64,000 nt of DNA from NCBI RefSeq assembly GCF_004745575.1, contig NZ_RPEM01000006.1, positions 216,471 through 280,470 of the forward strand, written 5' to 3'. How positions within the stretch are numbered: the stretch's first letter is position 1; every line of letters begins with the position of its first letter. A program made the position numbers and the translations under genes. Shown piece by piece: positions 1-17,873 of the stretch. The stretch comes from Pseudotabrizicola sediminis (GTDB lineage: Bacteria > Pseudomonadota > Alphaproteobacteria > Rhodobacterales > Rhodobacteraceae). The notes beneath the pieces were generated by a model. It was not told where the DNA came from. It was given only the letters and a program-made list of their open reading frames with translations, and ran no database searches.

Positions 1-389
1 AGATACAGCAGCGTCAGATAGCCGGCTTGGGCAAACATCAGCGTCACGATCATGAAACTGACCCCCGCCGTGCGCAGCGCCAGCACCCCGACCGCACCTG
101 CCATCACCCCGCCGGCCAGCAGCCCCGCGATCAGGGCAGGTACCGACACCCACTCCAGATGCCAGACCGGCAGGCCCATGCCATACATCCCGGCGGCAAA
201 GAACAGCGCGTGGCCCAGCGACAGCAGGCCCGTGTAGCCAAAGGCAATGTTGTAACCCATGGCGAACACCGCCAGCACCATGATCCGCGCCAGATTGGTT
301 GCGTGATAGGGGGGCAGCAGGAACTGCGCCGCAAACACCGCCGCCAGCACCAGCAGATGAAGCCCCCAGACCTTCGCCCCATCCGTCAT
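1..389 (-). CDS. livM: Branched-chain-type ABC transporter permease LivM (partial, N-terminal part)
   Basis: This is the first 129 or so residues of a second inner-membrane permease of a LivHM-type ABC importer; the gene runs off the window edge. The start is the ATG at 389-387, which overlaps the livH stop in an ATGA arrangement, so the two are translationally coupled. The protein begins MTDGAKVWGLHLLVLAAVF and shows hydrophobic segments and the YTGLLSLGHALFFAAGMY region typical of LivM proteins. Such permeases pair with LivH and two ATPases to import branched-chain amino acids, amides or other small polar substrates. Here the neighbouring catabolic genes suggest a heterocycle or amide rather than leucine; that substrate is inference. 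Confidence 0.9.
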   Translation of the reverse strand, partial: MTDGAKVWGLHLLVLAAVFAAQFLLPPYHATNLARIMVLAVFAMGYNIAFGYTGLLSLGHALFFAAGMYGMGLPVWHLEWVSVPALIAGLLAGGVMAGAVGVLALRTAGVSFMIVTLMFAQAGYLTLLY

Positions 390-1264
390 GCTTTGGCACC
401 GAACAGGCCCTGCGGGCGGAACACCAGCACCAGTGCCACCAGCAGGGTGGCGATGATCTTGGCCAGCGTGGGCGAAAAGAACATGCTGATGATCCCATCT
501 GACAGGCCGATCACCAGTGCCGCCACCAGCGTGCCCCGGATGGACCCAAGCCCGCCGATGATCACCACGATGAATGACAGCAAGAGCGGATCATGCCCCA
601 TCAGGTAATGCGCCTGCTGGATCGGCACGATCAGCACCGCCGCCGCCGCCGCCAGCGCCCCGCCAAGCGCAAATGTGCCGGCATAGACCCTGTCGACGTT
701 GATTCCGAACGCCTGCGCCGTGTCGCGGTCCACCTGAGTGGCGCGCATCACCAGCCCGGCCTTGCTGCGGGTCATGAACAGCCAGACCGCCGCCAGAATG
801 ACTACCGCCGCCACCACCACGAACAGCTTGTAGCCGGAATAACCGAACCATGGCAGCTGAATGCGCCATTCGAAGGGGGCCACCACCGGGCGCGCATCGG
901 GGCCGTAAAACGTCAGCGCCGCCTGTTGCAGCATGTACAGCAGCCCGATTGTGGCAACGATGGTGGCCTCCGGGTCATAGTTCAGCCGTTTCAGCACCAG
1001 TGTATCGGTCAGCGCGGCGATCAGTGCCACGATCAGCGGGGCGATGATCAATGCCGCCAGCCAGACAAGCGCAGGCGGAAACGGCAGGTAATAGGTCACA
1101 AACCACGCAATCACGGCGCCCAGCATGTAAAACTCGCCATGCGCCACGTTGACCACGCGCATCACGCCGAACACCAGCGACAGGCCCACCGCCGTCAGCG
1201 CCAGCACGGCCGCCATCACGGTGCCCTCCAGCACGGCCAGAAGCAGGAACGGCCCAAAGCTCAC
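386..1264 (-). CDS. livH: Branched-chain-type ABC transporter permease LivH
   Basis: This 292-residue integral membrane protein matches LivH permeases in length and in its RVVNVAHGEFYMLGA segment near residues 36-50 and its IGGLGSIRGTLVAALVIG segment near the C terminus. It forms the membrane channel with LivM and takes ligand from the binding protein encoded just upstream. The start is a GTG at 1264 with a G-rich ribosome site (GGGGG) about nine bases before it. It follows the binding-protein gene by about 70 bases and overlaps livM by four. Substrate specificity cannot be read from the permease. Confidence 0.9.
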   Translation of the reverse strand: MSFGPFLLLAVLEGTVMAAVLALTAVGLSLVFGVMRVVNVAHGEFYMLGAVIAWFVTYYLPFPPALVWLAALIIAPLIVALIAALTDTLVLKRLNYDPEATIVATIGLLYMLQQAALTFYGPDARPVVAPFEWRIQLPWFGYSGYKLFVVVAAVVILAAVWLFMTRSKAGLVMRATQVDRDTAQAFGINVDRVYAGTFALGGALAAAAAVLIVPIQQAHYLMGHDPLLLSFIVVIIGGLGSIRGTLVAALVIGLSDGIISMFFSPTLAKIIATLLVALVLVFRPQGLFGAKA

Positions 1265-1332
1265 TGCGGCACGCCCCCTTTGGAGGGGACGGCCTGCGTG
1301 TTCAGTTCCGGCATGTCAGGCAATGGCCGCAC

Positions 1333-2613
1333 TCAGAAGCTCTGCGTCGTGTAGTCAACAGCGTCGGCGTACATGCTGTCTTCGATGCTGGTGGTGTGCA
1401 CCTTTACCAGCTTGCCACCTTCGACCTTGCTGATGAACTGATGGCCAAACACCTGATGGGTCTTGCCGTTGAACACCTTGTCGCCCTGCACATGCGCAAG
1501 GCTTTCCGGCATATCGGTCATCGCCTCGACCGCCTCGACGAACTTCTGCCGGTCAGCGGTGCCCTGATACCGCGACGCCTCCATCCCGGCCTTGATGATG
1601 TGCAGCGTTTCCCAGACAGAAAACATATGCGCATAGGTAGACACATCCTTGGCATCCGACACCGACGCGCCGTTGGCATCAACGCCCACGGCGGCGCGAT
1701 AGGCGATTTCATGCTCCGACGCATCGGCCTGTTGCGCCCGGCAATGGCCTTCCCAGAAATGCGTGCCCTCCAGAAACTCCAGACCCGGCGAGGCGATATC
1801 GACCGCCTCCAGCGAGTCGATGAAGCCAAAGATCTGTGGCTTGGCCCCGGTGCCATAGAACTCGCCCAGTTCCTTCACAAAGGTCAGAACCGCCGGGCCG
1901 ACCATGACGTGATACAAAACCTCGGTCTCGCGCGGGATCTGCGGCAGATAGCGGGTAAAACTGGTCTCGGTCGGCGGGACGGCGATCTGGGCAATCACCT
2001 CACCGCCGCCTGCCTCCACCGCTGCGGTAAAGAAATCGCGGTGATCGTGGCCAAAGGCATAGTCGGGGAACACCATGGTGACCTTTTTGCCAAGGTTGGC
2101 CAGAACCCAAGGGGCCATCGAGCTGACCTGTGCCCGCACGTCCGTGATGCCGGGTTGCATGGTCCAGCGGTTCAGCATGCCGCCCGCTACGTGGAAGCCT
2201 TCGGAACAGACAAGGTACGGCACCTTTAGCTCGCCGGCGCGGGGGGCCGATCCGATGACCACATGCGAAAACAGCGGCCCAAAGATCAGGTCGCAATTGT
2301 GCTGGCTGGTCAGCTTTTCCACCACCTCGGCCCCGCGCTTGGGGTCGGTGCCATCATCTTCAAACACGATCTCGACCGGGCGGCCATTGATGCCGCCTGC
2401 GTCGTTCACCACCTTCAGCGCGGCCTGCGCCGTGCGTTCGTACCAGCGGCCATAGGCAGCGCCGATGCCGGTGCGGTGCAGCTGAAACCCCAGCTTGACG
2501 GGTGCGGCCTGCGCCCAGACCGGGGCGGCAAAGCCAGCCGCCAGCAGCCCGGCACCCGCGCCCTTCAGCACAGCGCGCCGCGATGGTGCCACCCCGATGA
2601 GTTTTTGTGTCAT
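1333..2613 (-). CDS. ABC transporter substrate-binding protein (Leu/Ile/Val/amide type, Tat signal)
   Basis: This is a periplasmic type I binding protein of the LivJ/amide-urea family, about 426 residues. The N terminus carries a twin-arginine signal (SRRAVLKGAGAGLLAAG) and an AxA-type cleavage region (PVWAQA). The mature part starts with PVKLGFQLHRTGIGAAYG and contains DAGGINGRPVEIVFEDDG, the usual ligand-binding N-lobe features. I chose the ATG at 2613 because GGAG lies nine bases upstream; an in-frame GTG 15 bases earlier is less well placed. It precedes livH and livM on the same strand and follows the catabolic genes, so it is probably the uptake component for the compound they degrade. 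The ligand is unknown. Confidence 0.87.
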   Translation of the reverse strand: MTQKLIGVAPSRRAVLKGAGAGLLAAGFAAPVWAQAAPVKLGFQLHRTGIGAAYGRWYERTAQAALKVVNDAGGINGRPVEIVFEDDGTDPKRGAEVVEKLTSQHNCDLIFGPLFSHVVIGSAPRAGELKVPYLVCSEGFHVAGGMLNRWTMQPGITDVRAQVSSMAPWVLANLGKKVTMVFPDYAFGHDHRDFFTAAVEAGGGEVIAQIAVPPTETSFTRYLPQIPRETEVLYHVMVGPAVLTFVKELGEFYGTGAKPQIFGFIDSLEAVDIASPGLEFLEGTHFWEGHCRAQQADASEHEIAYRAAVGVDANGASVSDAKDVSTYAHMFSVWETLHIIKAGMEASRYQGTADRQKFVEAVEAMTDMPESLAHVQGDKVFNGKTHQVFGHQFISKVEGGKLVKVHTTSIEDSMYADAVDYTTQSF

Positions 2614-2685
2614 GTCAAACATCTCCACTGTTGCGGGGCACCTCTGCGGGCACCTCTGGGTTCAACCTTTTGCCGGGACGCCGCA

Positions 2686-2726
2686 TTTGTCCACGATTTT
2701 TTCAGCCCGTCCGTGCGGTGGACAAA
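2686..2726. repeat. Inverted repeat spanning the stop codon of the membrane-protein gene
   Basis: TTTGTCCAC at 2686-2694 is the exact reverse complement of GTGGACAAA at 2718-2726. The arms flank the stop codon of the upstream membrane-protein gene (2702-2704) and sit about 73 bases before the binding-protein start. No U-run follows the stem on the minus strand, so it is more likely an intercistronic RNA structure than a strong terminator. Function is inference. Confidence 0.5.
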
Positions 2727-4048
2727 AGCCACAGGCCCAACACGGTGTATCCAACCATCAGCGCGGTCATTGGCAGATGTGCCAGTGCCCGCATATTCCC
2801 CACCAGACGAAGCGACAGAAGTACCGCCAGCAGATGCGCACCCAGAATGGCGGCAAACTGCGCGGCATAAATCATCGGCATGATGGTCTGATCGGTCAGA
2901 AAGCCGAATGACACATAAAACGGCGGCAGGCCCAGATAAGCATCACCGCGAAACCACGGATCGTTCAGCGCGGCCAGCGTATACTGGCCTGCGGTCAGCA
3001 GGGTCACCAGATAATGCGCGGCGTGATAGCCCGCCGCGATGGCGAGGAAGGACAGCATCACCGGCCCGGTCGCAAAGCGCGCGCCTCCAATCATCTGACC
3101 CAGCCGGATCACCGCCCAGAGCGCCGCAATGGTGATCATCCAGACCCCCAGCAGCCCCAGCGTGTTGACCCCCATCACCGACGACCGCCCCGTCGGCTCC
3201 AACGGGTTTTCCCCGATCACGGCATGCCACCAGAAGGTTTCCATCAGCCCGTCAAACGTCAGCGCCGACAGGGCCAGCGTAATAAAGGCCATTGCAGAAA
3301 TAGAAAGCGGGGCCATCCGCAGCACCTGCGCCCCCGGCCAGCCGCGCATCAGCCGGGCGCGAGTTCCGTCAAGCTCCAGCCAGAAGGGTGCCACCTTGGC
3401 CAGATACCCCATCAGCACGGTCAGAAACTCGCCCTGTTGCAACCAGTCTTCGCCTTCGGCCACCGCCAGAACAAAGATCACCAGCCAGTAGGTCAATGCC
3501 ACGCAGGCCAGCACATAGGGATCGTCCGGGGCCATGGACACCAGCTGGAACCATGCAAAGCCGCCGTAGCCCGCGACGGCGGGCCAATGCCCCAGCCGTG
3601 ACAGCCCGACCGATCCGGTCCGGCCCAGCAGCGTGCGCGCAACGCGCACCGGCGCGGTCCAGGGGTTGAGGGGGCGCCACAGATTGCCCAGCAGCATCGA
3701 CCCCAGCGGCACCGCGATCCAGACCCCGGTCCAGAACACCAGCGTCATCAGGTTATGCATCGGGTCGCGCGCGCCGAACAGGCCGACCAGAACCAGCCCC
3801 AGAAAGCACAGGAACGACAGGTAGGACGATACCGACACCGGCACCCAGATCCGTCGGTCCAGCACCGGCACGGCCTGCAACCGGGGCAGGTGCCCGGCCA
3901 TAGCGCCCATCAGCGCTGTCACGGCCACGGTCACTGCTGCCCCGGCAATATAGTGCCCGGTCGGCAGGGTCAGGATCACCGAAGGCGGCAGGGCGCAGGC
4001 AAATGCCGCGCCGGGCAGGAGCATCAGGGCCCCCGCAATCGCCCTCAT
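2702..4048 (-). CDS. Uncharacterised multi-spanning membrane protein
   Basis: This is a 448-residue, very hydrophobic protein with a signal-like N terminus (MRAIAGALMLLPGAAFA) and roughly ten to twelve predicted membrane segments. Visible marks are GNLWRPLNPWTA near residue 120, a YHAAHYLVTLLTAGQ segment with two histidines near residue 345, and paired aromatic residues in loops. I do not recognise a characterised family with certainty. The LNPW motif and topology recall membrane proteins that databases sometimes label fenitrothion hydrolase, but I would not transfer that function. Its start overlaps the DUF1185 gene by four bases, so it is co-translated with the hydroxylase/reductase set and lies just before the ABC importer genes. 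Confidence 0.8.
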   Translation of the reverse strand: MRAIAGALMLLPGAAFACALPPSVILTLPTGHYIAGAAVTVAVTALMGAMAGHLPRLQAVPVLDRRIWVPVSVSSYLSFLCFLGLVLVGLFGARDPMHNLMTLVFWTGVWIAVPLGSMLLGNLWRPLNPWTAPVRVARTLLGRTGSVGLSRLGHWPAVAGYGGFAWFQLVSMAPDDPYVLACVALTYWLVIFVLAVAEGEDWLQQGEFLTVLMGYLAKVAPFWLELDGTRARLMRGWPGAQVLRMAPLSISAMAFITLALSALTFDGLMETFWWHAVIGENPLEPTGRSSVMGVNTLGLLGVWMITIAALWAVIRLGQMIGGARFATGPVMLSFLAIAAGYHAAHYLVTLLTAGQYTLAALNDPWFRGDAYLGLPPFYVSFGFLTDQTIMPMIYAAQFAAILGAHLLAVLLSLRLVGNMRALAHLPMTALMVGYTVLGLWLLSTARTG

Positions 4049-4641
4049 CTGAGCCCGTCCTCGCCCTTGACCTGATCCATTTCCAGCCCGCCCATCCGGG
4101 AATGAATGCGCCCGCCCCGCGCCATGGCAAGGGCAAACAGCACCTCACCGGCGCGCGGTCCATCCTCGCAGGTCACCGTGATCACATCAAAACGCGACCG
4201 CACATAGGCGGCGTTCAGATGGCCCAGCGGGATATCCAGCGTGCTGCCCATGCCGCCCACCTTCATGGCCGAGGGCACAATCGCCCGGCATTCCCCCAGC
4301 CGTTCCCGCATGCCGTAGCCCCCTGCCACATGCCAGATCGCGCCATGCTCGCTCTCCCCCGCTTCGCCCACGATGGCCCCTTTGCCATAGGCGTCGATCC
4401 GGTCACGCCCGCCCATTGCGGCGACCAGCCGGTCGGTGAGCAGCAGCGCAAGCGGCTTCAATGCATCCATCGCCGGAAGCAGATCTTCCTGATAGCGCCC
4501 GGCAAAAGGGTTGGCGCAGATGGCATAGACCGCGCCGCGCAAGGGGGGTGTTTCGGCAAGGGGGCCGCCTTCGTGAAGGATTTCTTCGATCTGAATGGTG
4601 ATCTTGCGGATGGCAAAGTCAGACGGGAGTGAGTCAGACAA
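4045..4641 (-). CDS. DUF1185 / 'amino acid synthesis' family protein
   Basis: This 198-residue protein fits Pfam AA_synth (DUF1185) over its whole length: an N-terminal RKITIQIEEILHEGG stretch, CANPFAGRYQEDL near residue 43, AYGKGAIVGEAGESEHGA in the middle and MARGGRIHSRMGGL near the end. The family is structurally known but has no established reaction; the name 'amino acid synthesis' is historical. It overlaps the UPF0280 gene upstream by eight bases and the membrane protein downstream by four, so it belongs tightly to the catabolic operon. A role in processing the ring-cleavage product is possible but is inference only. Confidence 0.85.
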   Translation of the reverse strand: MSDSLPSDFAIRKITIQIEEILHEGGPLAETPPLRGAVYAICANPFAGRYQEDLLPAMDALKPLALLLTDRLVAAMGGRDRIDAYGKGAIVGEAGESEHGAIWHVAGGYGMRERLGECRAIVPSAMKVGGMGSTLDIPLGHLNAAYVRSRFDVITVTCEDGPRAGEVLFALAMARGGRIHSRMGGLEMDQVKGEDGLR

Positions 4642-5470
4642 GGGCAGGCTCCTTCAGGGCAATCGGGCCAAGTGTGCGCATTTCAGCGTGCAGGAAAAGG
4701 GCGGCGGCTTCAATACGCCCGTGGGTGCGGAGCGTCTGTGCCATAGCCTCACCTGCGGCCAGGGCGCGGGTGATGTCATCGCCGGTCAGTCCGGTCACCC
4801 CCACCGTCACCTGCCGCGTGCCAAGATCACTGTCGGCCTGCATGTCCACTGCCGGGCGGCGGCTGATGCCCGGGTGGCCGGGCAAGTCCAGCGCATTGGC
4901 GATCATGGTGGCCGCCGCATCGGCCATGGCCGCTGTCCGTCCTAGCACAGTGACGGAATCGGCAATCCCCAAAGACCAGCTGCGCCCGCGCCAACCCGAG
5001 GTGGCGATGCCGCGCACCGCATCTTCCGCGCGCACGGTGATGCGGTCAGGAAAACCGGGCTGTGCGGCAATTGCACAGGTCAGGCTCTCCCCCGGCATCA
5101 GATGCAGCGCAATGTCACCGCCGTTGTTCACATAGGCGCGCGTCACGCCCGGCACCGACAGCGCGGCCAGAACCGCATCGGCTACCGCCCCCGCCACCGC
5201 CGCCATCGGCGTGATGAAGCGGGGCGCAAACGCGGCAGTGGCCTGTGCCATCACCCGCCCGATGGCACCAGTCGGCTGCCCGCCTTCGCTGCGCAAGACA
5301 GGCAGCTCCGCCGCGAGTTCTGCCAGAACAGAGCCGAATCTTTCGGCTGCACGCCTTTCCCCTGCGGCCACAGCACTTGCATCACCCCAAGCCTGCGCAA
5401 TGATGTCGATTGGCCCATGGTGCAGATGCATGCGCCCGTCAGGCAGGCGCGCAATCATCGCTCCGGTCAT
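4634..5470 (-). CDS. UPF0280 family protein (ApbE-like fold)
   Basis: This 278-residue protein matches the UPF0280/COG2122 family, which is distantly related to ApbE flavin transferases. Visible features are DIIAQAWGD near the start, PTGAIGRVMAQATAAFAPRFITPMAAV in the middle third (split by family-conserved glycines), the YVNNGGDIALHL strand and ATSGWRGRSWSLGIADSVTVLG. The last two resemble the ApbE NxGGD and 'TSG' regions. The biochemical role is unestablished. It overlaps the 6-hydroxynicotinate-reductase-like gene by four bases (ATGA), which makes a maturation role for that flavo/Fe-S enzyme an attractive hypothesis rather than a known fact. Confidence 0.85.
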   Translation of the reverse strand: MTGAMIARLPDGRMHLHHGPIDIIAQAWGDASAVAAGERRAAERFGSVLAELAAELPVLRSEGGQPTGAIGRVMAQATAAFAPRFITPMAAVAGAVADAVLAALSVPGVTRAYVNNGGDIALHLMPGESLTCAIAAQPGFPDRITVRAEDAVRGIATSGWRGRSWSLGIADSVTVLGRTAAMADAAATMIANALDLPGHPGISRRPAVDMQADSDLGTRQVTVGVTGLTGDDITRALAAGEAMAQTLRTHGRIEAAALFLHAEMRTLGPIALKEPALV

Positions 5471-6909
5471 GACAGCGCCTTTGGCGGCGGCATCAGATGG
5501 GCGCGCGTCTGATACTCGCCCCCCTCCGCCCGGGCCGCCTCCAGATCACGGATGGCAGGTTCATGACCCCCCATCGCCAGATACTCCGCCCGCGGCAGGG
5601 TGAATTCCAGCGGGGCCACCAGCGCCGGGGTGGGCACATAGCCAAAGGCCCCGGCGGGCAGGCATGTCACGTCCACCATGAAGGTGATGCCGCCGCCCGG
5701 CCAGACATAACAGTCGGCCCCGCCACTGGTCAGCCGGGTTTGCCCGGCCTGCACCGACCGGGTCAGCCGCACCGGGTTTTGCGTGACCCCAGCACGGAGC
5801 GAACCGCCCGCGCCGCCCATGAACAACACGGTACACAGCGAAGGCTCGCAATTTTCATCAATCAACCCGACTGTCGCCCGCAGGGCGTCAGGCAGGGGCT
5901 GTTTTTGCGGTGTCAGAGCCTCATCCAGCACATAATAGGCAAACTCCTCGCCGGTGGTGGACACCATCAGAAGCGTCAGCCCCGGCCTTGCACCTTTCCG
6001 CGCCTCCCATGGCCCGAGAATCTCCAGCGGATCGGACAGTTGGGTGCCGCCCCAGCCCAGCCCCGGTTCCGACACCCGGAAATAGCGGCCCGGTGTCGAG
6101 CGATGGCCCTTGATCCGGATGCCGGTGGGCTGCCAGCCCAGAACCTTGCCCGCCTGATGTTCGCTGACCACGCCGGTGATGTGGTCGTCGACCACCACCA
6201 CCTCATCCACCAGCCCGACCCATTGGCTGGCAAACATGCCGATGGTCGCCGACCCGCACCCCACCCGCATCCGTCGTTCCGGCGTGCCATCGACGATGGG
6301 TGGCTTGCCCGCCTGTACCGTCACGGCAGAGCCGCCGTCGATGGTCAGATCCACCGCGGCCCCGTTGCACAGCGCCAGAAGGGCAGCGCAGGTGACACGG
6401 CCTTCGGACTTGCTGCCGCCGGTCAGGTGGTGCACACCGCCAAGGCTGAGCATCTGGCTGCCGTATTCGGTGGTGGTGACATGCCCCACCGGCTCGCCCT
6501 GCGCGCGGACGATGGCCCCTTCGGCGCCCAGATGCCGGTCGGTGTCGATCTTCACCTTGACCCCACAATAGGAAAAGATCGCCTCGGTCACGACAGTCAC
6601 CATATCGGCCCCGGCGATGGTGGAGGAGACGATAAACGGTGCAGGTTTGTAATCGGGATAGGTGGTGCCCGAACCGATGCCGGTGACAAAAGTATCATCC
6701 GGAAACGGATTGCCATCCCAGTCCCGCGAGGCGAAGGGCACGACGCGGCCCCCTTCAGCAACGGTGCGTGACAAAAGGACCACCGGATCGGTGCGCAGGA
6801 TGCGGCCATCGACATTGGCATAGCGGTCACAGGCCCCGGTCTGGCCCGGAGCGATGTAGCACATCACCGGGCAGGCATCGCATCGGATCTTTTCAGCTTG
6901 CGCAGTCAT
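5467..6909 (-). CDS. 6-hydroxynicotinate reductase-like iron-sulfur protein
   Basis: This 480-residue protein begins with four closely spaced cysteines (C10, C13, C17, C27 in KIRCDACPVMCYIAPGQTG and GACDRY), a typical 4Fe-4S ligand set. Length and N terminus agree with proteins annotated as 6-hydroxynicotinate reductase, the ferredoxin-dependent ring reductase of the Eubacterium barkeri nicotinate pathway. The remainder is a long soluble domain with glycine-rich strands such as MRVGCGSATIGMFASQW and YVWPGGGITFMVD. It is followed by UPF0280 (four-base overlap) and preceded by the molybdenum hydroxylase. Hydroxylation of a ring next to nitrogen followed by reduction is the implied chemistry. 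The actual substrate here is not determined by the sequence. Confidence 0.72.
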   Translation of the reverse strand: MTAQAEKIRCDACPVMCYIAPGQTGACDRYANVDGRILRTDPVVLLSRTVAEGGRVVPFASRDWDGNPFPDDTFVTGIGSGTTYPDYKPAPFIVSSTIAGADMVTVVTEAIFSYCGVKVKIDTDRHLGAEGAIVRAQGEPVGHVTTTEYGSQMLSLGGVHHLTGGSKSEGRVTCAALLALCNGAAVDLTIDGGSAVTVQAGKPPIVDGTPERRMRVGCGSATIGMFASQWVGLVDEVVVVDDHITGVVSEHQAGKVLGWQPTGIRIKGHRSTPGRYFRVSEPGLGWGGTQLSDPLEILGPWEARKGARPGLTLLMVSTTGEEFAYYVLDEALTPQKQPLPDALRATVGLIDENCEPSLCTVLFMGGAGGSLRAGVTQNPVRLTRSVQAGQTRLTSGGADCYVWPGGGITFMVDVTCLPAGAFGYVPTPALVAPLEFTLPRAEYLAMGGHEPAIRDLEAARAEGGEYQTRAHLMPPPKALS

Positions 6910-6936
6910 GCGGTGACCCTTTGGGCTGGGTGGGGA

Positions 6937-6982
6937 CCGGGGGCCAGCCCCCGGACTCCCGGGATATTCTCGGACTGAGAAT
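6937..6982. repeat. Extragenic double palindrome in the hydroxylase/reductase gap
   Basis: The 88-base gap between the hydroxylase and reductase genes contains CCGGGGGC at 6937-6944 mirrored by GCCCCCGG at 6947-6954, then ATTCTC at 6966-6971 mirrored by GAGAAT at 6977-6982, joined by a CCCGGGATAT stretch. From memory, very similar GC-rich palindromes followed by CCGGGATATT are scattered through intergenic regions of Rhodobacteraceae. It may be a dispersed extragenic palindrome or an RNA-processing hairpin. Confidence 0.5.
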
Positions 6983-6997
6983 GGGCAGAAAGCTGTG

Positions 6998-9652
6998 TCA
7001 TGTCAGGGCTGCCAGCAGGCGGTGGGGCAGGACCGGCACCTGCGTCAGGCTGGCCCCGGTGGCGTGGCGGATGGCGTTCAGGATGGCGGGGGCGGTGGGG
7101 ATCAGCACATGTTCGCCAAGCCCTTTAGCCCCGTAGGGGCCTTCGGGATCGGGCACCTCGATCAACAGGCTTTCAATGGGGGGCACGTCGCCGATAGTGG
7201 GGATCAGGTAGTCGTGCAGGTTTTCGGTGCGGCCGGGCAGGTATTCCTCCATCAGGGCGAGGCCGATGCCTTGCGCTATGCCGCCTTCGATCTGGCCGGT
7301 GGCAAGCTGTGGGTTGATGGCGCGGCCCACATCATGCGCGGCGGTGATCTTCAGCAGGCGCAGGGTGCCGAGGGCGGGGTCCACCTCCAGTTCCACCATC
7401 TGCGCGCCGTAGCCATAGAGCGCGTAGGGCGTGCCCTGACCGCGTTCATCCAAAGCGGAGGTTGGCGGATCATAGGTTTCCTCTGCCGTCAGGGTATAGC
7501 CGTGGGTGTCGCGGGGCAGGGTGGCAAGGTCGATCCGGCGCCTGGTGGCCCCTTCGGTGATGGTCAGCCCGGCACCCTCCAGCGCCAGTTGCGCGCCATC
7601 CCCCGCGTTGGCCAGGCGCAGGATCTGCGACCGCAGCGCCTCTGCCGCGGCCTTGGCGGCGCGTCCAGAGACAAAAGTCTGCCGGCTGGCCGAGGTTTTG
7701 CCGGCATCGGGGGTCAGTGCGGTATCGGGGCCGATCAGGGTGAAATGGTCCAGGGGCAGGCCAAGCGCCTGCGCGGCGATCTGTGCGATCACGGTGTTCG
7801 ACCCCTGGCCGATATCGGTCGCCCCCTGATGTAGCATCACGCGGCCCCCTGGTGACAGCCCGATGCGGATGGTGGACGGGTTGGGCAGCGAGGTGTTGCC
7901 GCAGCCGTACCAGCACGCGGCCACCCCGACGCCTCGGCCAGGATTGGTCTCTGACATGGCTCTTTTCCAATGCGGGCGCAGGGCGGTCAGGCAGGCTTCG
8001 ATCCCCGCGGCCTGCACCACTTGCCCGGTTGCGGTGGCGTCTCCATCGCGCAGCGCGTTCAGAATGCGGAACTCAAGCCGGTCCAGCCCGGCCTTGTCGG
8101 CCAGCTGGTCAAACAGCGTTTCCTGCCACAGGGCAGCCTGCGGCACGCCAAAGCCGCGAAAGGCGCCTGACACCGGGCCATGAGTGTGGATGGCGCGGGC
8201 CTTTGCCTGCACATGCGGGGTCAGGTACGGCCCGGTGACATGCACCGGCACCCGGTTGGCGACGGTCGGCCCCCAGCTGGCGTAGGCCCCGGTGTTGAAC
8301 CGTCCCTCGAATTGCATCCCGGTCAGCCGCCCGGCTGCATCGCATCCGATGCTGCCATCCATCTCTGCCGGGTGGCGTTTGGTGGTCGAGGCCATGCTGT
8401 CACGCCGGGAATAGACCATCCGGCAGGGCCGCCCGGTTTTCAGGGTGACCAGACCGATCAGCGGTTGCAGGCTGATGTCCAGTTTTGAGCCGAAGCCACC
8501 GCCCACTGCCGACGGGATGATGCGTACCCGTTCGCAAGGCAGGCCCAGCACCAAGGCTGTGTCGTCGCGGTCCATCACCGGGGCCTGCGTGCAGGCGCGG
8601 ATCACCAGCGTGTCGCCGTCCATCCAGGCCGCACCCGCCTCGGGTTCGATATAGGCGTGTTCGATATAGCCGGTCTGCATGGTGCCGGTGACGACATGGG
8701 CCGATTGTGCGAGGGCAGCTTTCGCATCGCCCCGGATCACACGGCCCTCGATCAGCTGATTGTCGGCGCGGTCTGCATGAACCAGCGCCGCGCCCCGCGC
8801 TTCGGCCTCTGCCGGGGAGTTCAGGGCCTGCAACGGTTCCCATTTAATTGGAAAACCTGTCAGATCAGGCTCTGTTCCGGCTTCAAAGGCCACCAGTGCC
8901 ACGCATTCGCCCCGAAACCGGGCCGGGCTTTGTGCAATTGCGGGCTGGTCGGCGAAGGCGGGGATGACGCCAAAGGCGTTGCGGCCCGGGATATCGGCGG
9001 CGGTGAAGATGCCGGCCACGCCGGGGCGGCGGGCAAAGCCCGCGAGGTCACCGAAGCGAAACCCGGCATGCGGGTGAGGAGATCGCAACGCGACCACGGT
9101 CAGGGCGCCTTCGGGCCAATGATCCGCGCCGAAACTGTCGCCGCGCACCTTGGCCTGACCGTCCAGCCGGGTGACAGATGCGCCGACGCCAGCCGCCAGT
9201 TCAGGCTCGACCGTGCCCGTATCGCACACAGCCGCGATGATCTTGCGATAGCCGGTGCAGCGGCACAGCACGCCGCCCAACGCATCCTGCACCTGTGCTT
9301 CGGTCGGCGCGGGCACGCGGCGGCGCAGGTCGACCGCCGCCATCAGCATTCCCGGTGTGCAGATGCCGCACTGCGCCGCACCATGGCGCAGAAAGGCGTC
9401 GCGCAACTGTTCCAGATCGTCCGCATCCGACTCGACGGTTTCGACCCGCGCGCCCGAGGCCCGCGCCGCTGGCACCATGCAGGCACAGACCTGTGCGCCG
9501 TTCAGCAAAACTGTGCAGGCCCCGCAGTCCCCGGCATCACAGCCAACCTTGGTGCCCATTGCGCCCAGATGTTCGCGCAGCACCTCGGTCAGGCGCGCGG
9601 TCGGTGCGGCCTCGGTCGTGACCGGTTTGCCGTTCAGGATGAAGCCGATCAT
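6998..9652 (-). CDS. Molybdenum hydroxylase (xanthine dehydrogenase family), fused 2Fe-2S and Mo-cofactor subunits
   Basis: This 884-residue protein joins two normally separate subunits. Residues 1-140 form the 2Fe-2S part: a plant-type cluster (C38, C43, C46, C58) and a second cluster (C95, C98, C130, C132, in CGICTPG and LCRCTGY). From about residue 160 onward is the molybdopterin-binding part, ending with AKGLGE, whose glutamate (E847) corresponds to the catalytic base of the family. Such enzymes hydroxylate carbons adjacent to ring nitrogen using water. It overlaps the FAD subunit gene by four bases, so a two-polypeptide enzyme is expected. Nicotinate, pyrimidine or purine-like substrates are possible; the sequence does not settle which. 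Confidence 0.9.
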   Translation of the reverse strand: MIGFILNGKPVTTEAAPTARLTEVLREHLGAMGTKVGCDAGDCGACTVLLNGAQVCACMVPAARASGARVETVESDADDLEQLRDAFLRHGAAQCGICTPGMLMAAVDLRRRVPAPTEAQVQDALGGVLCRCTGYRKIIAAVCDTGTVEPELAAGVGASVTRLDGQAKVRGDSFGADHWPEGALTVVALRSPHPHAGFRFGDLAGFARRPGVAGIFTAADIPGRNAFGVIPAFADQPAIAQSPARFRGECVALVAFEAGTEPDLTGFPIKWEPLQALNSPAEAEARGAALVHADRADNQLIEGRVIRGDAKAALAQSAHVVTGTMQTGYIEHAYIEPEAGAAWMDGDTLVIRACTQAPVMDRDDTALVLGLPCERVRIIPSAVGGGFGSKLDISLQPLIGLVTLKTGRPCRMVYSRRDSMASTTKRHPAEMDGSIGCDAAGRLTGMQFEGRFNTGAYASWGPTVANRVPVHVTGPYLTPHVQAKARAIHTHGPVSGAFRGFGVPQAALWQETLFDQLADKAGLDRLEFRILNALRDGDATATGQVVQAAGIEACLTALRPHWKRAMSETNPGRGVGVAACWYGCGNTSLPNPSTIRIGLSPGGRVMLHQGATDIGQGSNTVIAQIAAQALGLPLDHFTLIGPDTALTPDAGKTSASRQTFVSGRAAKAAAEALRSQILRLANAGDGAQLALEGAGLTITEGATRRRIDLATLPRDTHGYTLTAEETYDPPTSALDERGQGTPYALYGYGAQMVELEVDPALGTLRLLKITAAHDVGRAINPQLATGQIEGGIAQGIGLALMEEYLPGRTENLHDYLIPTIGDVPPIESLLIEVPDPEGPYGAKGLGEHVLIPTAPAILNAIRHATGASLTQVPVLPHRLLAALT

Positions 9653-10476
9653 GCCGAGGCCTCTGCTACGGCGCGGCGCACCAGTTCGGCCGCGGCAGCC
9701 ATGCGATACCCGGCAGTGGCGCGCACGTCATCTATCGGCGACAAGGCGGCGGCAACATCTGCCGCGCGCACTCCGGCAGCGGCCCCGGCCACGGGCACGC
9801 CGATGAGCGCCGCTTCTACCGCCGGCAATCGTTGCGCCACGCCAGAGCAGGCCCCCACCGCAATCGCTGCCCCGGTGATTTGGCCTTCTGCCACCTGAAC
9901 CCGCGCTGCCACCATGGCAATCGAGATCACCAGATAGGCCCGCGCGCCCAGCTTTACAAAGCTGGACCGCCCCTGCAGTGCCGCTTCCGGCACGATCACG
10001 GCAGTCAGCACCTCATCGCCTGCGCGCAGGGTCTGGCGTGGTCCGGTCAGGAACTGTGCCAGCGGCATTTGCCGCAGGCCGGAAGGCCCCGCGAGCTCCA
10101 CCACCGCATCAAGTGCCAACAGCGGCGGCACCCCGTCTGCGGCGGGAGAGGCGTTGCACAGGTTGCCACCGATGGTGCCCGCGTTCTGCACCTGCCGCCC
10201 GCCCACCTGCCGCGCCGCCTGTTTCAGGCAGCGCAGGGCTGGGGGCAGGTCTGCTTCAGCAATCGCGGTCCATGTGGTGCACGAACCAATACGCAACCCA
10301 GTGCCACCGGTGATGCCAGAAAGCGCGGGAATGGCGGTCAGGTCCAGCACGTTGCCGTCAATCTGCACCCCGGCTGCCGGGTAAAGATCGGTGCCGCCTG
10401 CCAAAATCCGGCGCTGGCCTTGCGCCAGCAGGCCAATCGCCTCGTTCAGTGTCTGTGGCCGCGCATAGCCGCGCAT
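9649..10476 (-). CDS. Molybdenum hydroxylase FAD-binding subunit
   Basis: This 275-residue protein is the medium, FAD-binding subunit of a xanthine dehydrogenase/CO dehydrogenase-type enzyme. It has both flavin-contact motifs of the family: LAGGTDLYP at residues 25-33 and NAGTIGGNLCNASPAADG around residues 98-114. It passes electrons from the 2Fe-2S centres of its partner, encoded immediately downstream with a four-base overlap, to NAD or another acceptor. It is the first gene of the minus-strand catabolic set; the 154-base gap to the divergent flavoprotein gene must hold both promoters, but I could not single one out. Confidence 0.9.
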   Translation of the reverse strand: MRGYARPQTLNEAIGLLAQGQRRILAGGTDLYPAAGVQIDGNVLDLTAIPALSGITGGTGLRIGSCTTWTAIAEADLPPALRCLKQAARQVGGRQVQNAGTIGGNLCNASPAADGVPPLLALDAVVELAGPSGLRQMPLAQFLTGPRQTLRAGDEVLTAVIVPEAALQGRSSFVKLGARAYLVISIAMVAARVQVAEGQITGAAIAVGACSGVAQRLPAVEAALIGVPVAGAAAGVRAADVAAALSPIDDVRATAGYRMAAAAELVRRAVAEASA

Positions 10477-10630: not shown

Positions 10631-12664
10631 ATGTCGAATGATCCGCTGCTGCAACCTTACCGGCTGAAGCATCTGACGCTGCGCAACCGGATCATGACCA
10701 CCAGCCATGAACCGGCCTATCCCGAAGATGGCATGCCGAAAGACCGCTACCGGCTGTATCATCTGGAGCGGGCAAAGGCCGGTGTGGCGCTGACCATGAC
10801 CGCCGGATCGGCGGCAGTTTCCAAGGACAGCCCGCCGGTGTTCAACAACATCCTGGCCTACAAGGATGAGGTGGTGCCTTGGCTTAAGCGGCTGACCGAT
10901 GATTGCCACGAGGCCGGGGCGGCGGTGATGATCCAGCTGACCCACCTTGGCCGCCGCACGCGCTGGGACAAGGGCGATTGGCTGCCGGTGGTGGGGGCGG
11001 GGCCGTCACGCGAACCGGCGCACCGGGCCTTTCCCAAGGTGGTCGAAGACTGGGACATCGACCGTATCGTCACCGATTACGCCGATGCGGCAGAGCGGAT
11101 GCAGGCGGCCGGTCTCGATGGGGTAGAGTTTGAATGCTACGGCCATCTGATGGACCAGTTCATGTCGCCCTTCACCAATGCACTGACCGCACCCTATGGC
11201 GGCAGTCTGGAAAACCGGGCGCGGTTCGCGATGGAGGTGCTGGCCGCCTGTCGCAAGCGGGTGGGGGAGCACTTCCTGCTGGGCGTGCGCTACACGGCGG
11301 ATGAGGCGGAGCCGGGCGGGATTGATGCCGATGACGGCATTGCCATCGGCAAGATGTTCCGCGATTCCGGGTTGGTCGACTTCCTCAATATCATCAAGGG
11401 GCGCATTCATACCGACCCGGCGATGACCGATGTGATCCCGATTCAAGGCATGAAATCGGCTCCGCATCTGGATTTTGCCGGTCGTGTGCGGGCCGAGGTT
11501 GGCTTGCCCACCTTTCACGCTGCGCGCATCCCAGATGTGGCAACGGCACGCTATGCCGTGCAGTCGGGGCAGCTGGACATGGTCGGCATGACCCGGGCGC
11601 ATATGGCCGACCCGCATATTGTGCGCAAGATCGTAGAGGGGCGTGAAGAGGATATCCGCCCCTGTGTCGGGGCAACATATTGCCTTGACCGGATCTATCA
11701 GGGCGGCATGGCGCTGTGCATTCACAACCCCGCCACCGGGCGGGAAGAGACCATGCCGCATGAGGTGTCGCCCGCGCCAGTGGCAAAACATGTGGTCGTT
11801 GTTGGCGCAGGCCCTGCGGGGCTGGAGGCGGCACGGGTGGCGGCGGAGCGTGGTCACCGGGTGACGGTGCTGGAGGCGGCGGATCAGCCCGGCGGTCAGG
11901 TCCGGCTGACGGCACAGACCAAACGCCGGGCCGAGATGATCGGGATCATCGACTGGCGCATGGCGCAATGCGCGGCGCGTGGGGTGGCGTTCCATTTCAA
12001 CACCTATGCCGAGGCAGCGGATGTAATGGCGCTGGTGCCCGATGTGGTGATCATCGCCACGGGTGGCATGCCCGAGGCGGGGGTGCTTGGCTTTGGCAAC
12101 GAGCTGACGGTTTCTGCCTGGGATATCCTTTCGGGTGACGTGAAACCCGGCACCAATGTGCTGCTTTATGACGATGCGGGCGACCATACCGCCCTGCAGG
12201 CCGCGCAGCGTCTGGCCGAGTCCGGTGCCACGGTCGAGGTGATGACCCCCGACCGCAGCTTTGCGCCCGAGGTGATGGGCATGAACCTTGTGCCCTATAT
12301 GCGGGCGCTGCAGGACAAGCCGGTGACCTTTACCGTCACCTACCGCCTGCGCGGGGTGCAGCGCGATGGCAACCAGCTGCGCGCGGTGATCGGGTCGGAT
12401 TACATGGATGTGACCAAAGAGCGGAGCTTTGATCAGATCGTGGTCAACCACGGCACCCAGCCGCTGGCCGATCTGTATTTTGATCTGAAGCCGCGGTCAC
12501 AAAACCTTGGTGCAGTGGATCATGAGGCGATGATTGCAGGCCACCCCCAGCCCATTGGTGATGGCCCTGCAGGCTTTGTCCTGTACCGAATCGGGGACGC
12601 CGTAGCGTCGCGCAACACCCATGCCGCGATCTATGATGCACTGCGACTGACCAAGGATCTTTGA
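10631..12664 (+). CDS. Old Yellow Enzyme-type Fe-S flavoprotein (N-methylproline demethylase / dienoyl-CoA reductase-like)
   Basis: This 677-residue enzyme has an N-terminal FMN TIM barrel (residues 1 to about 340), an Fe-S linker, and a C-terminal FAD/NAD domain beginning at VVVVGAGPAGLEAA near residue 388. This is the trimethylamine dehydrogenase/2,4-dienoyl-CoA reductase architecture. The linker reads CVGATYCLDRIYQGGMALC, giving C345, C351 and C363; the middle Cys of the usual CxxCxxC triplet is alanine. Its opening residues resemble proteins annotated as N-methylproline (stachydrine) demethylases, so oxidative N-demethylation is a fair guess. AAGG lies six bases before the ATG. It diverges from the hydroxylase operon and is followed by a TetR efflux operon. 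Confidence 0.82.
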   Translation: MSNDPLLQPYRLKHLTLRNRIMTTSHEPAYPEDGMPKDRYRLYHLERAKAGVALTMTAGSAAVSKDSPPVFNNILAYKDEVVPWLKRLTDDCHEAGAAVMIQLTHLGRRTRWDKGDWLPVVGAGPSREPAHRAFPKVVEDWDIDRIVTDYADAAERMQAAGLDGVEFECYGHLMDQFMSPFTNALTAPYGGSLENRARFAMEVLAACRKRVGEHFLLGVRYTADEAEPGGIDADDGIAIGKMFRDSGLVDFLNIIKGRIHTDPAMTDVIPIQGMKSAPHLDFAGRVRAEVGLPTFHAARIPDVATARYAVQSGQLDMVGMTRAHMADPHIVRKIVEGREEDIRPCVGATYCLDRIYQGGMALCIHNPATGREETMPHEVSPAPVAKHVVVVGAGPAGLEAARVAAERGHRVTVLEAADQPGGQVRLTAQTKRRAEMIGIIDWRMAQCAARGVAFHFNTYAEAADVMALVPDVVIIATGGMPEAGVLGFGNELTVSAWDILSGDVKPGTNVLLYDDAGDHTALQAAQRLAESGATVEVMTPDRSFAPEVMGMNLVPYMRALQDKPVTFTVTYRLRGVQRDGNQLRAVIGSDYMDVTKERSFDQIVVNHGTQPLADLYFDLKPRSQNLGAVDHEAMIAGHPQPIGDGPAGFVLYRIGDAVASRNTHAAIYDALRLTKDL

Positions 12665-12790: not shown

Positions 12791-13408
12791 ATGACGATTG
12801 CATCCGACACGCCGCTCGCCGACCAACGCTCGGCAGAGATATTGGAAAGTGCCCGCCGCGCCTTTGCGGAAAAGGGCTTTGACGGCGCATCCATGCAGGA
12901 TATCGCCCGCAAGTCGGGGATGAGTGTCGGAAACTTCTACCGGTATTTCCCTTCCAAGGCTGCAATTGTCGAAGCGCTGATCGCCTTTGACATGGCCGAG
13001 ATGGAGCAGGATTTTGCCGCGATCCTGATCAACCCCGACCCGTTGCAGGCCCTGCGCGAAACCATCGAACGCAAGATTACCGAAGCGGAATGTCACGGTG
13101 ATGGCCAGATCTGGGCCGAAATCACCGCGGCAGCCCTGCGCAAACCCGAAATCGGCGAGATCGCCTATCGGATGGAACTTGGGATCGTCGCGCATCTGAT
13201 CACGATTTTTTCCCATGCAGCCGGGGTGAACGTTGCCGAAGCGCAGGCCCGCTGGACCGCCCATGCCCATTTGCTGGTGATGATGGTCAAGGCTTGCGCG
13301 ATGCAACGCCCCGAAAATCCCACGACGGCTGATCTGACGCGGCTGGTGCTGCGTAACATCAACCGCACGCTTGATGACATTGCCACATCTGCTGCCTTGA
13401 AAGGCTGA
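12791..13408 (+). CDS. TetR/AcrR family transcriptional repressor
   Basis: This 205-residue regulator has an N-terminal TetR helix-turn-helix: RSAEILESARRAFAEKGFDG followed by SMQDIARKSGMSVGNFYRYF, roughly residues 14-55. The C-terminal ligand pocket is family-variable. It is the first gene of an operon with the RND adaptor (four bases later) and RND pump, the usual local repressor arrangement. A perfect palindrome sits directly upstream. The inducer is unknown; drugs, bile-like or aromatic compounds are typical for such regulators. Confidence 0.9.
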   Translation: MTIASDTPLADQRSAEILESARRAFAEKGFDGASMQDIARKSGMSVGNFYRYFPSKAAIVEALIAFDMAEMEQDFAAILINPDPLQALRETIERKITEAECHGDGQIWAEITAAALRKPEIGEIAYRMELGIVAHLITIFSHAAGVNVAEAQARWTAHAHLLVMMVKACAMQRPENPTTADLTRLVLRNINRTLDDIATSAALKG

Positions 13409-13412
13409 CCCG

Positions 13413-14588
13413 ATGCGCCCGCTTCTTTATGTGCTTCCCGTTTTCATGCTCCTTACACCCGCTGCCCCGGCGCTGGCCCAGACTGCCGCCGCTGCGTCTG
13501 ACATTGCTACAGCACAGGTTGCGCCCGCCATCACTGTGTCGCCCGTCGCCAAACGGGTTTTGCGCGACCGCGTGATCGCATCCGGTCTGGTTTCGGCGAT
13601 CGAGAATGTGCAGGTCGCCCCGCTGATCGAAGGTCAGCCGATCGAGGCGCTGCTGGTCGATGTCGGCGATGTGGTTGAGGCGGGGCAGGTTCTGGCCGTG
13701 CTGTCGAAAACCACGCTGGAGCTGCAGAAAAGCCAGTTCAATGCCTCGCTCGCCTCGGCCCGTGCCACCGTGGCGCAGGCCGAAGCCCAGATGCTGGAGG
13801 CGCGCAGCACGGCGGATGAGGCGCAGCGGGTGACTGAACGCACCGCCGCCTTGCGCCAGCAGGGCACTGCGTCGCAGGCCGCAGCGGATACCGCCCAGTC
13901 CAACGCCATCTCGGCCACGGCGCGGGTTACGGTCGCCGTTCAGTCGCTGGAGGCCGCCCGGGCCCAGATTGCGCTGGTCGAAGCGCAGATGGCCAATATC
14001 GACCTGCAACTTGGCCGGACAGAGGTAAAGGCCCCTGTCGCCGGGGAAATCACCGCCCGCAACGCCCGTGTCGGGTCCATTGCGTCGGCGGCGGGCAAGC
14101 CGATGTTCACCATCATCCGTGACAATGCGCTGGAAGTGATCGCTGATGTGGCCGAAGCCGATGTGATGCGGCTTGCGCCCGGTCAGACCGCAAACCTGCT
14201 GCTGGTCGGGGCCAGCACCCCGCTGAAAGGTACTCTGCGGCTGGTGGAACCGACCATCGGCGTGCAATCCCGGCTTGGGCGCGCAAGAATTGCGGTGGAA
14301 GACGAAAGCGGCGTGCGGGCCGGAATGTATGCCGAGGCGGAAATTCTGGTGGCCGAGCATGACGTGATCGCGGTTCCCGTCACAGCAGTCGGGTCGGGCC
14401 CCGATGGTGCGACTGTGATGAAGGTCACCGGTGAAACGGTGCAGCAGGTGGCGGTGCAGACCGGTATCCGCGAGGGCGGCTGGGTCGAAATCCTGTCCGG
14501 TTTGGCGGACGGGGATGTGGTGGTGACCAAGGCCGGTGCCTTTGTCCGCGATGGCGACCGGATCAATCCGGTTCCGGCAACGAACTGA
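13413..14588 (+). CDS. RND efflux periplasmic adaptor (membrane fusion protein)
   Basis: This 391-residue adaptor has a cleavable signal (MRPLLYVLPVFMLLTPAAPALA), a barrel-sandwich/lipoyl region around VQVAPLIEGQPIEALLVDVGDVV, an alpha-helical hairpin rich in Ala/Gln/Glu (about residues 100-195) and a second lipoyl half with GRTEVKAPVAGEI. It bridges the inner-membrane pump to an outer-membrane channel. AAAGG lies eight bases before the ATG. No TolC-like gene is present in the window, so the channel is presumably encoded elsewhere. Confidence 0.92.
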   Translation: MRPLLYVLPVFMLLTPAAPALAQTAAAASDIATAQVAPAITVSPVAKRVLRDRVIASGLVSAIENVQVAPLIEGQPIEALLVDVGDVVEAGQVLAVLSKTTLELQKSQFNASLASARATVAQAEAQMLEARSTADEAQRVTERTAALRQQGTASQAAADTAQSNAISATARVTVAVQSLEAARAQIALVEAQMANIDLQLGRTEVKAPVAGEITARNARVGSIASAAGKPMFTIIRDNALEVIADVAEADVMRLAPGQTANLLLVGASTPLKGTLRLVEPTIGVQSRLGRARIAVEDESGVRAGMYAEAEILVAEHDVIAVPVTAVGSGPDGATVMKVTGETVQQVAVQTGIREGGWVEILSGLADGDVVVTKAGAFVRDGDRINPVPATN

Positions 14589-14600
14589 CGGGGGCACGCC

Positions 14601-17600: not shown

Positions 17601-17873
17601 GCAACGGCGGTGATCGGCGGCATCATCGTCTCGACAGTGCTGTCGCTGGTTGTGGTTCCGGCATTTTACCTGATCATGGATGACCTGAGCCGTCTGCTGG
17701 CCCGGTTTTTCAGCCGCTTTGTCGGGCCCAAGGAAGCCGACCCCGAGGCCCCGCCGGCCGAGGTTCTGGCCGAACGCATCGCGCTGCTGAATGCCGAACA
17801 GCGCGTGTTGCGTGACCGGCTGGATGCGCTTGCCGCGCCACGCCCGGCCCCACCCCTCGCGGCGGCGGAGTGA
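14601..17873 (+). CDS. RND family multidrug efflux transporter permease
   Basis: This 1090-residue inner-membrane pump has the AcrB/MexB plan: an N-terminal helix (NPIAPILAFFMLMVLGW), two large periplasmic loops, and twelve membrane segments in two halves. The TM4 region includes LATGILVDDAIVEIENIARH, with the Asp pair used in proton transfer, and TM10-11 reads GIVTKNAILLIDFAIEM. It starts 12 bases after the adaptor gene. A C-terminal cytoplasmic tail of about 55 residues (Pro/Ala-rich, with a short helix) extends beyond the usual end. The substrate range cannot be predicted. Confidence 0.93.
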   Translation: MNFSSWSIKNPIAPILAFFMLMVLGWNSFNTLPITRFPNIDVPLVGITVVQPGAAPAEMESQVTKEIEDAVAGINGVKNVTSTVNDGVSTTVVEYRMEVPTEKAVQDTKDAIDQIRGDLPATIEAPIVSRIDVEGQAIMTFAVTAPDMTLEEVSWFVDDTVTRGLQGRPGIGRVSRFGGADREIRVELDPVRLDSFGISAAAVNQQVRATNANLGSGRSELGAGEQAIRTLGDAGTVERLAETTIALPSGRKVRLSDLGEVIDSYEELRSFSSLNGERVVSFAVYRASGASEVSVAETVNAQLDVIRAANPEVGIELVDETVFYTYGNYEAALHTLIEGAILAVLVVLAFLKNWRATLIAAVALPLSAVPTFFIMDLLGFSLNLVSFLALTLATGILVDDAIVEIENIARHIRMGKTPFRAAIEAADEIGLAVIATTFTIVAVFVPVSFMPGIPGQYFRQFGMTVAIAVLFSLIVARLITPMMAAYLMRDKDGHEDSHNDGWVMTGYLRLIRTSLRFRYVTLLSAIGVLAVSIYYMVQIPGSFLPPEDVSRIAVSVELPPGTTLAETEVTTKAIYTAIEDVGWIDNVFILGGSSPTGDLDVRRASVTILLTRLDHSLLLKLSQIGRSIPVIGGLVPEVENTGRTVPQNVIEEEVFRRLASVPDMRAFKLNDRGQRDISFSILSSNEADLTLAVSRLEAALSGDPLLANVATEGALPRPEIQITPRMDEAARLGITTAQIAEVVRVATIGDVDAALAKLSIDNRLVPVRVRLNNAAREDLARISALKLTTSTGGTVPLAAVADVAIAEGPSTVNRFNRERRATIGANLPVGVALGSATARFNELVATVDLPPGVRVQEAGDAEVQNEMVASFGNAMLLGLMLVLTVLILLFKSVIQPFTILFSLPLAIGGVAGALILTSSAVSMPVLIGILMLMGIVTKNAILLIDFAIEMRAQGMERFAAVMEAGHKRARPIVMTSIAMSAGMLPSALGVGEGGSFRAPMATAVIGGIIVSTVLSLVVVPAFYLIMDDLSRLLARFFSRFVGPKEADPEAPPAEVLAERIALLNAEQRVLRDRLDALAAPRPAPPLAAAE

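Follow-up and report, generated by a model that had tools for sequence, protein, structure and literature searches.

Organisation of the operon

The left end of a 64,000-nucleotide stretch of the Pseudotabrizicola sediminis genome (G000:C56:216471-280470, hereafter the window) carries a chain of genes around an iron-sulfur protein resembling 6-hydroxynicotinate reductase (Hnr), which we regard as part of a 13-gene operon likely to serve the catabolism of nicotinate (vitamin B3) or a relative of it; the Hnr-like protein would be matured by its neighbour UPF0280 and the resulting lactam opened by HyuAB. The open-reading-frame list confirmed each gene of the original prediction at its coordinates, all on the minus strand and tightly chained, mostly with overlaps of a few bases. 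The names and order of those genes were correct, while the count of seven was too low, as the operon comprises 13 genes and extends left beyond base 1 of the window.

The first gene encodes the FAD subunit of an XDH-type molybdenum hydroxylase (9649..10476; FAD_binding_5, 9.7e-40, and CO_deh_flav_C) and shares a 4-base overlap with the gene of the fused [2Fe-2S] and Mo-cofactor subunit (6998..9652; MoCoBD_1/2, Fer2 and Fer2_2), a protein that reaches the cut-off of none of its 20 listed NCBIfam models. There follow the Hnr-like Fe-S protein (5467..6909), named from the annotation of its relatives; UPF0280 (4634..5470; NCBIfam PRK04334.1-2, 339.6 bits against a cut-off of 290), a member of the ApbE superfamily which we take to be COG2122; DUF1185/AA_synth (4045..4641; PF06684, 6.2e-64), from a family with a chorismate-mutase-like fold; and a polytopic membrane protein (2702..4048) with no Pfam or NCBIfam match at E<=1e-3. 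The dedicated importer that had been predicted is borne out by the Liv-type genes that come next: a periplasmic binding protein (1333..2628; Peripla_BP_6, 2.5e-50), a LivH-type permease (386..1264; BPD_transp_2, 3.9e-37) and the start of a LivM-type permease (1..389), whose intact 314-amino-acid open reading frame spans the window border (L003:4916-5860). The off-window part of the operon (genome C56:210830-216859) continues to the left with LivG (L002:18738-19463), LivF (L002:18056-18811), HyuA (L002:16035-18059) and HyuB (L002:14360-16042), named after Fuscovulum ytuae (L062), in which the LivM/LivG/LivF/HyuA/HyuB part has an identical annotated gene order. ATPases and amidohydrolases had been suggested as genes to look for left of position 1; the ATPases are there, whereas the hydrolase is of the hydantoinase/oxoprolinase type.

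Recurrence of the Hnr-UPF0280 pair

We compared 147 Hnr loci, made up of 80 named genome loci (the best 80 of a longer list, all at least 66% identical), 7 annotated plasmid loci and 60 stretches from further genomes; some are near-duplicates, L109 and L182 for example sharing an identical Hnr. Genome-wide co-occurrence was assessed in a set of 289 alphaproteobacterial genomes. The comparison of neighbourhoods confirmed the Hnr/UPF0280/DUF1185 block as conserved, and since this core recurs across many genomes it is not a chance arrangement.

UPF0280 is the tightest partner of the Hnr-like protein. Of the 138 loci with at least 1,100 bases of room, 137 have it, by profile, immediately downstream of Hnr and in the same orientation; the profile is loose (278 open reading frames matched in 149 sources), and the tblastn check gave 136 of 138, the difference being a locus with a split Hnr frame (L174). 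The sole exception is a short metagenome contig with no UPF0280 (L108), and one locus (L186) has a MarR-like match between the two genes. The gap between Hnr and UPF0280, counted in 139 loci, has a median of -4 bases and is 10 bases or less in 125. Genome-wide, Hnr was found in 44 of the 289 genomes and UPF0280 (NF003322) in the identical 44, plus one weak match (4.6e-7) in a genome outside that set (G143), and among plasmid records Hnr matched 26 (E<=1e-5) and UPF0280 27 (E<=1e-3). Matches to UPF0280 also occurred in 2 of 14 control genomes, both methanogens, under the family cut-off.

DUF1185 is less faithful. It occurs in 56 of the 289 genomes (39 of the 44 with Hnr, 17 of the 245 without) and in 387 plasmid records (E<=1e-3), and is absent from 15 (profile) or 22 (tblastn) of the 131 loci that offer 2.5 kb of room. 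The genome-wide co-occurrence thus ties UPF0280 to Hnr and leaves DUF1185 as a frequent companion, neither necessary nor specific, which would fit an optional accessory. Its family has solved relatives (3byq, 2qtp), and passages in PMC2954203 describe a chorismate-mutase-like fold with branched-chain-type ABC (ATP-binding cassette) transporter genes nearby and no reaction assigned.

Among the 104 loci that extend at least 8 kb to either side of Hnr, 103 have UPF0280 adjoining Hnr, 97 a Mo hydroxylase, 90 DUF1185 (tblastn), 77 an ABC importer, 22 a ferredoxin reductase and 10 NicB; relatives of the membrane protein were found in 29, where they usually adjoin the binding-protein gene. Two SAR116 cluster genomes (L101, L147) have the Hnr-UPF0280 pair with a second FAD/Mo hydroxylase set and an importer, and DUF1185 was not found near the pair in either.

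The Hnr-like protein

At E<=1e-3 neither Pfam nor NCBIfam offers a family for the Hnr-like protein itself. Its sequence is 60-81% identical to 16 diverse rows of the comparison, and of 26 matching plasmid records (61-84% identity) 17 name it 6-hydroxynicotinate reductase, the remaining 9 having "hypothetical" or no gene at the position. Fe-S clusters and a covalent flavin are features to be expected of a 6-hydroxynicotinate reductase. In an alignment of 145 of the 147 loci plus the window (146 sequences), C10, C13, C17, C27, C115, C218 and C354 are at least 98.5% conserved, and the first four form a C-x2-C-x3-C-x9-C arrangement (residues 10-27; 6829..6882, minus strand) that is likely a [4Fe-4S] site, judging by the motif.

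A first structural model was weak, with a predicted local distance difference test score (pLDDT) of 65.1 and no Foldseek match at E<=0.001. The second was fairly confident (pLDDT 83.4; predicted template-modelling score 0.77) and had no whole-chain PDB match at E<=0.001, an absence that is not proof of a new fold; its best partial hit suggests the C-terminal barrel of the glycine-cleavage T-protein (Z 4.8 over 64 residues), in agreement with weak GCV_T_C matches in all 17 of 17 Hnr members. A kinship of Hnr with DUF39/HcyBio was also considered and may exist: the DUF39 profile (PF01837) matched nothing in the genome of the window, even with the threshold relaxed to E<=10, and no member in 200 Pseudomonadota genomes, so that these provided no DUF39 sequences for a profile comparison with Hnr.

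Two probable ring-openers

HyuA/HyuB are present in 54 of the 147 loci, an enamidase in 19 and both in none (chance of no overlap under independence 8e-5, a calculation that ignores kinship); in the subset of 104 loci with 8 kb flanks the counts are 44, 18 and 0. On a quick tree covering 75 of the 146 Hnr sequences, the ring-opener switches at least six times and the hydroxylase type (XDH-type vs NicAB) at least four times. The enamidase of L065 aligns almost end to end (residues 1-385 of 388, E 1.8e-105) with 2vun, a solved enamidase, and a profile made from this protein and its relatives served to recognise enamidases elsewhere. In L065 and L066 an enamidase-type gene stands with the complete Hnr-UPF0280-DUF1185 block. 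An earlier proposal had UPF0280 and DUF1185 standing in for pathway steps that are missing; we reject this, because both occur beside an enamidase. Ring opening, the step that is missing, is instead probably the work of HyuAB, encoded just beyond the window.

The same division is seen at genome scale. Enamidase relatives at E<=1e-40 occur in 22 of the 289 genomes. In 18 of these the identity is at least 67%, and 17 of the 18 carry Hnr. A further 17 genomes with Hnr show no such enamidase and carry HyuA/HyuB in the cluster (one of them, G104, with an enamidase relative at 39%). The window's genome has no enamidase match at E<=1e-40. The HyuA proteins linked to Hnr form one close set, with 54 copies at least 55% identical to that of the window's operon; two other copies in these stretches have 37% and 40% identity, and those elsewhere in the window's genome 34% and 36%. 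The best NCBIfam match of both HyuA (508.2 bits) and HyuB (299.9 bits) is caprolactamase, which is an ATP-dependent enzyme. Given its linkage to Hnr, the likely substrate of HyuAB is a six-membered, unsaturated lactam carboxylate, and since the opener is modular, with HyuAB and enamidase together in none of the loci examined, it is probably HyuAB that opens the lactam here. Most simply, the six-membered lactam formed by Hnr would be opened by either of two unrelated enzymes, of which this operon would use the ATP-dependent one. In the literature searched, which leaves most subscription journals outside its coverage, we found no report of HyuAB in nicotinate breakdown.

Proposed pathway

Known nicotinate routes provide the frame, in which 6-hydroxynicotinate is partly reduced to 1,4,5,6-tetrahydro-6-oxonicotinate and, in Eubacterium barkeri, a bifunctional enamidase opens and deaminates that product, as set out in passages of PMC9304392. 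The earlier suggestion of hydroxylation followed by ring reduction is supported. In the scheme that we propose, the Liv-type importer would take up the acid, and the XDH-type hydroxylase (9649-10476 and 6998-9652) would convert nicotinate to 6-hydroxynicotinate, the fused Mo subunit presumably hydroxylating C6. The Hnr-like protein, matured by UPF0280, would then reduce this to 1,4,5,6-tetrahydro-6-oxonicotinate, a six-membered lactam, which HyuA/HyuB would open with ATP in place of the enamidase of other carriers, and the resulting enamine would lose ammonia and pass to central metabolism. Both the hydroxylase and the ring-opener are swapped around a constant Hnr-UPF0280 core, and therefore one shared intermediate, 6-hydroxynicotinate, is indicated; we infer that the substrate is nicotinate or a close relative that turns into 6-hydroxynicotinate.

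Several observations weigh against this scheme. The substrate and every reaction in it are read from genes, and the identity of Hnr comes through the annotation of its relatives. For the XDH-type hydroxylase the analysis gave no relative with a proven role in nicotinate conversion. HyuA and HyuB, at 508.2 and 299.9 bits, fall well below the caprolactamase equivalog cut-off of 1000 and are not equivalogs. Neither ring-opener was within reach in 42 of the 104 loci with 8 kb flanks, nor in the stretches examined for 10 of the 44 Hnr-carrying genomes, several of which are on short contigs, and one genome (G082) has a full enamidase ortholog without Hnr. Related sequences are moreover not independent, and the counts overstate significance.

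A probable role for UPF0280 in Hnr maturation

UPF0280 is homologous to the catalytic half of ApbE, by a Pfam match at 2.1e-4 (below the family cut-off) and by hhalign profile-profile comparison with five ApbE sequences (E 2.9e-7, probability 93). Across 140 of the 147 loci plus the window (141 sequences), N115, G118, D119, S158, D184 and T188 are present in 141 of 141, and D184 and T188 correspond to the Asp and Thr of the ApbE metal site. UPF0280 is probably needed to mature or assemble Hnr, by flavin attachment or by sulfur chemistry. Flavin attachment is the leading idea because UPF0280 is ApbE-related and keeps the metal-site Asp and Thr, and the Hnr of E. barkeri reportedly carries a covalent flavin, as Alhapel et al. 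are said to have found in 2006; sulfur delivery is a close rival. A candidate acceptor lies at Hnr residues 242-249 (D-H-I-T-G-V-x-[S/T]; 6163..6186, minus strand), which resemble the ApbE flavinylation motif without matching it. The surrounding D-D-H-I-T-x-V/I-x-[S/T]-E-H is invariant in 146 of 146 sequences, residue 249 being Ser in 124 and Thr in 22, and as Hnr has other columns that are only Ser or Thr, the site is a lead only.

Two features speak against flavin attachment. An ApbE target must carry D-x-x-[S/T]-G-A-[S/T] according to passages of a review (PMC12052999), yet the exact motif D-x-x-[ST]-G-A-[ST] occurs in 0 of 146 Hnr sequences. The catalytic His of ApbE, whose role the same source describes, corresponds by alignment to G168 in 141 of 141 UPF0280 sequences; a His 8-22 residues after TSG is found in 8 of the 141, against 16 of 25 ApbE-family open reading frames (9 of these 25 controls also lack it). 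The main text of that review has no mention of UPF0280 or nicotinate. A lipobox-like start is present in 1 of 141 UPF0280 sequences. We also considered the FAD-binding motif of ApbE, D-[LF]-GG-x-[AG]-KG, which is in 0 of 141 UPF0280 sequences yet in just 2 of 25 ApbE-family controls; the test does not discriminate, and the absence of the motif was dropped as an argument against the ApbE-likeness of UPF0280. Canonical ApbE as the flavin agent of Hnr is weakened, with 18 of 40 Hnr-carrying genomes showing no PF02424 match at E<=1e-4 (40 of the 44 were used, leaving out G000, G064, G071 and G226). The sole canonical match of the window's genome (G000:C14:21951-22526) has one in-frame TGA and partial profile coverage, and an assembly error is possible.

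That UPF0280 is instead a sulfur-relay or Fe-S maturation protein for Hnr is a credible, if tentative, explanation. Passages of PMC5764234 describe COG2122 as distantly related to ApbE, apparently outside the flavin-binding region, and as genetically required together with a DUF39 protein for homocysteine synthesis in Desulfovibrio, a persulfide role having been proposed by others; MA1715 is termed a sulfur trafficking protein in part of PMC12068725, and Hnr has the conserved C115, C218 and C354 besides its N-terminal Cys cluster. Against this stand the homology of UPF0280 to the catalytic half of ApbE, the invariance of D184 and T188, and the flavin reported for the E. barkeri enzyme. A more specific form of the flavin idea, which we regard as doubtful, would make UPF0280/COG2122 a new type of cytosolic enzyme that performs ApbE-like flavin attachment to Hnr without the catalytic His, at the Ser/Thr of DDHITxVx[S/T]EH, with the same chemistry behind the tie to DUF39 in methanogens and Desulfovibrio and with a largely undescribed fold for Hnr.

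Substrate and neighbouring genes

In other carriers Hnr can have a NicA/NicB-type hydroxylase as its partner. In three loci (L064, L066, L068) the Hnr-UPF0280-DUF1185 block stands with a hydroxylase annotated or arranged as NicA/NicB; NicAB of Pseudomonas is a nicotinate hydroxylase, and the nicotinate assignment of these loci rests on this and on annotation. Cytochrome-c matches were weak at the C-terminus of the L066 hydroxylase, the sole such protein scanned.

Divergent from the operon is a gene for an OYE-family flavoprotein (10631-12664, plus strand), which in other loci (such as L069-L071, L073, L075, L077, L078, L083, L126) keeps its place beside the gene of the FAD subunit, frequently separated from it by a MarR match, and which may provide an extra pathway step or a demethylase. 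Within the Hnr block of Sagittula stellata there is a gene annotated as aromatic ring-hydroxylating dioxygenase subunit alpha (L063:16541-17611), perhaps for a substituted substrate such as N-methylnicotinate. Further along the window (12791-17873, plus strand) a TetR regulator is followed by an HlyD-type and RND efflux pair (by eye), apparently a separate unit, and beyond HyuB, on the opposite strand, lie SIS- and NagA-like genes (by eye).

It is unlikely that the operon serves another N-heterocycle, such as a different pyridine carboxylate or N-methylnicotinate/trigonelline after demethylation, with the Hnr-like protein and HyuAB acting on its pyridone and lactam. The XDH-type hydroxylase is unlike NicAB, the OYE-family gene has matches in 10 of the best 80 named genome loci, of which 9 reach at least 75% identity, and either this enzyme or the Rieske oxygenase encoded in the S. 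stellata block could strip a substituent; yet Hnr proteins about 60-70% identical to that of the window occur with NicAB-type hydroxylases and enamidase, which argues for one shared intermediate.

Comparison with known systems

The pathway had been put forward as undescribed, and in this respect the original prediction does not hold. According to passages of PMC3511419, Azorhizobium caulinodans, Bradyrhizobium japonicum, Rhodopseudomonas palustris and strain SG-6C possess a nicotinate cluster. It comprises an Hnr homolog (that of SG-6C 42% identical to E. barkeri Hnr), the genes for steps one to three, a putative ABC importer and a pair of conserved unknown proteins, which we infer to be UPF0280 and DUF1185. 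That these two proteins catalyse steps of their own after ring reduction is very unlikely: the literature searched offers no proven reaction for either and DUF1185 is present in most Hnr-carrying genomes, but UPF0280 accompanies Hnr whichever ring-opener or hydroxylase is present, and DUF1185 is absent from 5 of the 44 Hnr-carrying genomes and present in 17 of the 245 others. The route is known and the operon of an ordinary kind with two informative twists, the modularity of the opener and the UPF0280-Hnr pairing, which seem new within what was searched. The first offers a candidate answer to how Hnr carriers without enamidase open the reduced nicotinate ring, and if an ATP-dependent lactamase has indeed taken over from a metal-dependent enamidase in one pathway, this would be a clean natural case of modular pathway evolution. 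The second has the most interesting consequence, a functional tie between UPF0280 and 6-hydroxynicotinate reductase; UPF0280 spans methanogens to marine Alphaproteobacteria, and the near-perfect pairing makes Hnr an obvious candidate for its substrate.

The operon shares with the Azorhizobium-type cluster a Mo hydroxylase adjoining an Hnr homolog, an ABC importer and two conserved proteins of unknown function. It differs in having HyuAB where that cluster has an enamidase as third enzyme, and in its XDH-type hydroxylase, with an FAD subunit and a fused FeS/Mo subunit. The order of hydroxylation, ring reduction by Hnr and ring opening is also that of nicotinate fermentation in E. barkeri, whose hydroxylase is a four-subunit selenium enzyme; the hydroxylase here is not so arranged, the window's genome has no enamidase at the threshold used, and no later fermentation genes were recognised in the operon. 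Caprolactamase CapAB (NCBIfam NF050156/NF050157) has the same two-subunit HyuA/HyuB architecture, whereas the Hyu proteins here score about half and about a third of its curated cut-off. With ApbE and with COG2122 of methanogens and Desulfovibrio, finally, UPF0280 shares the catalytic half and the metal-site residues, as well as the matches in the two methanogen controls, but its partner here is Hnr and not DUF39, and the position of the catalytic His is occupied by Gly.

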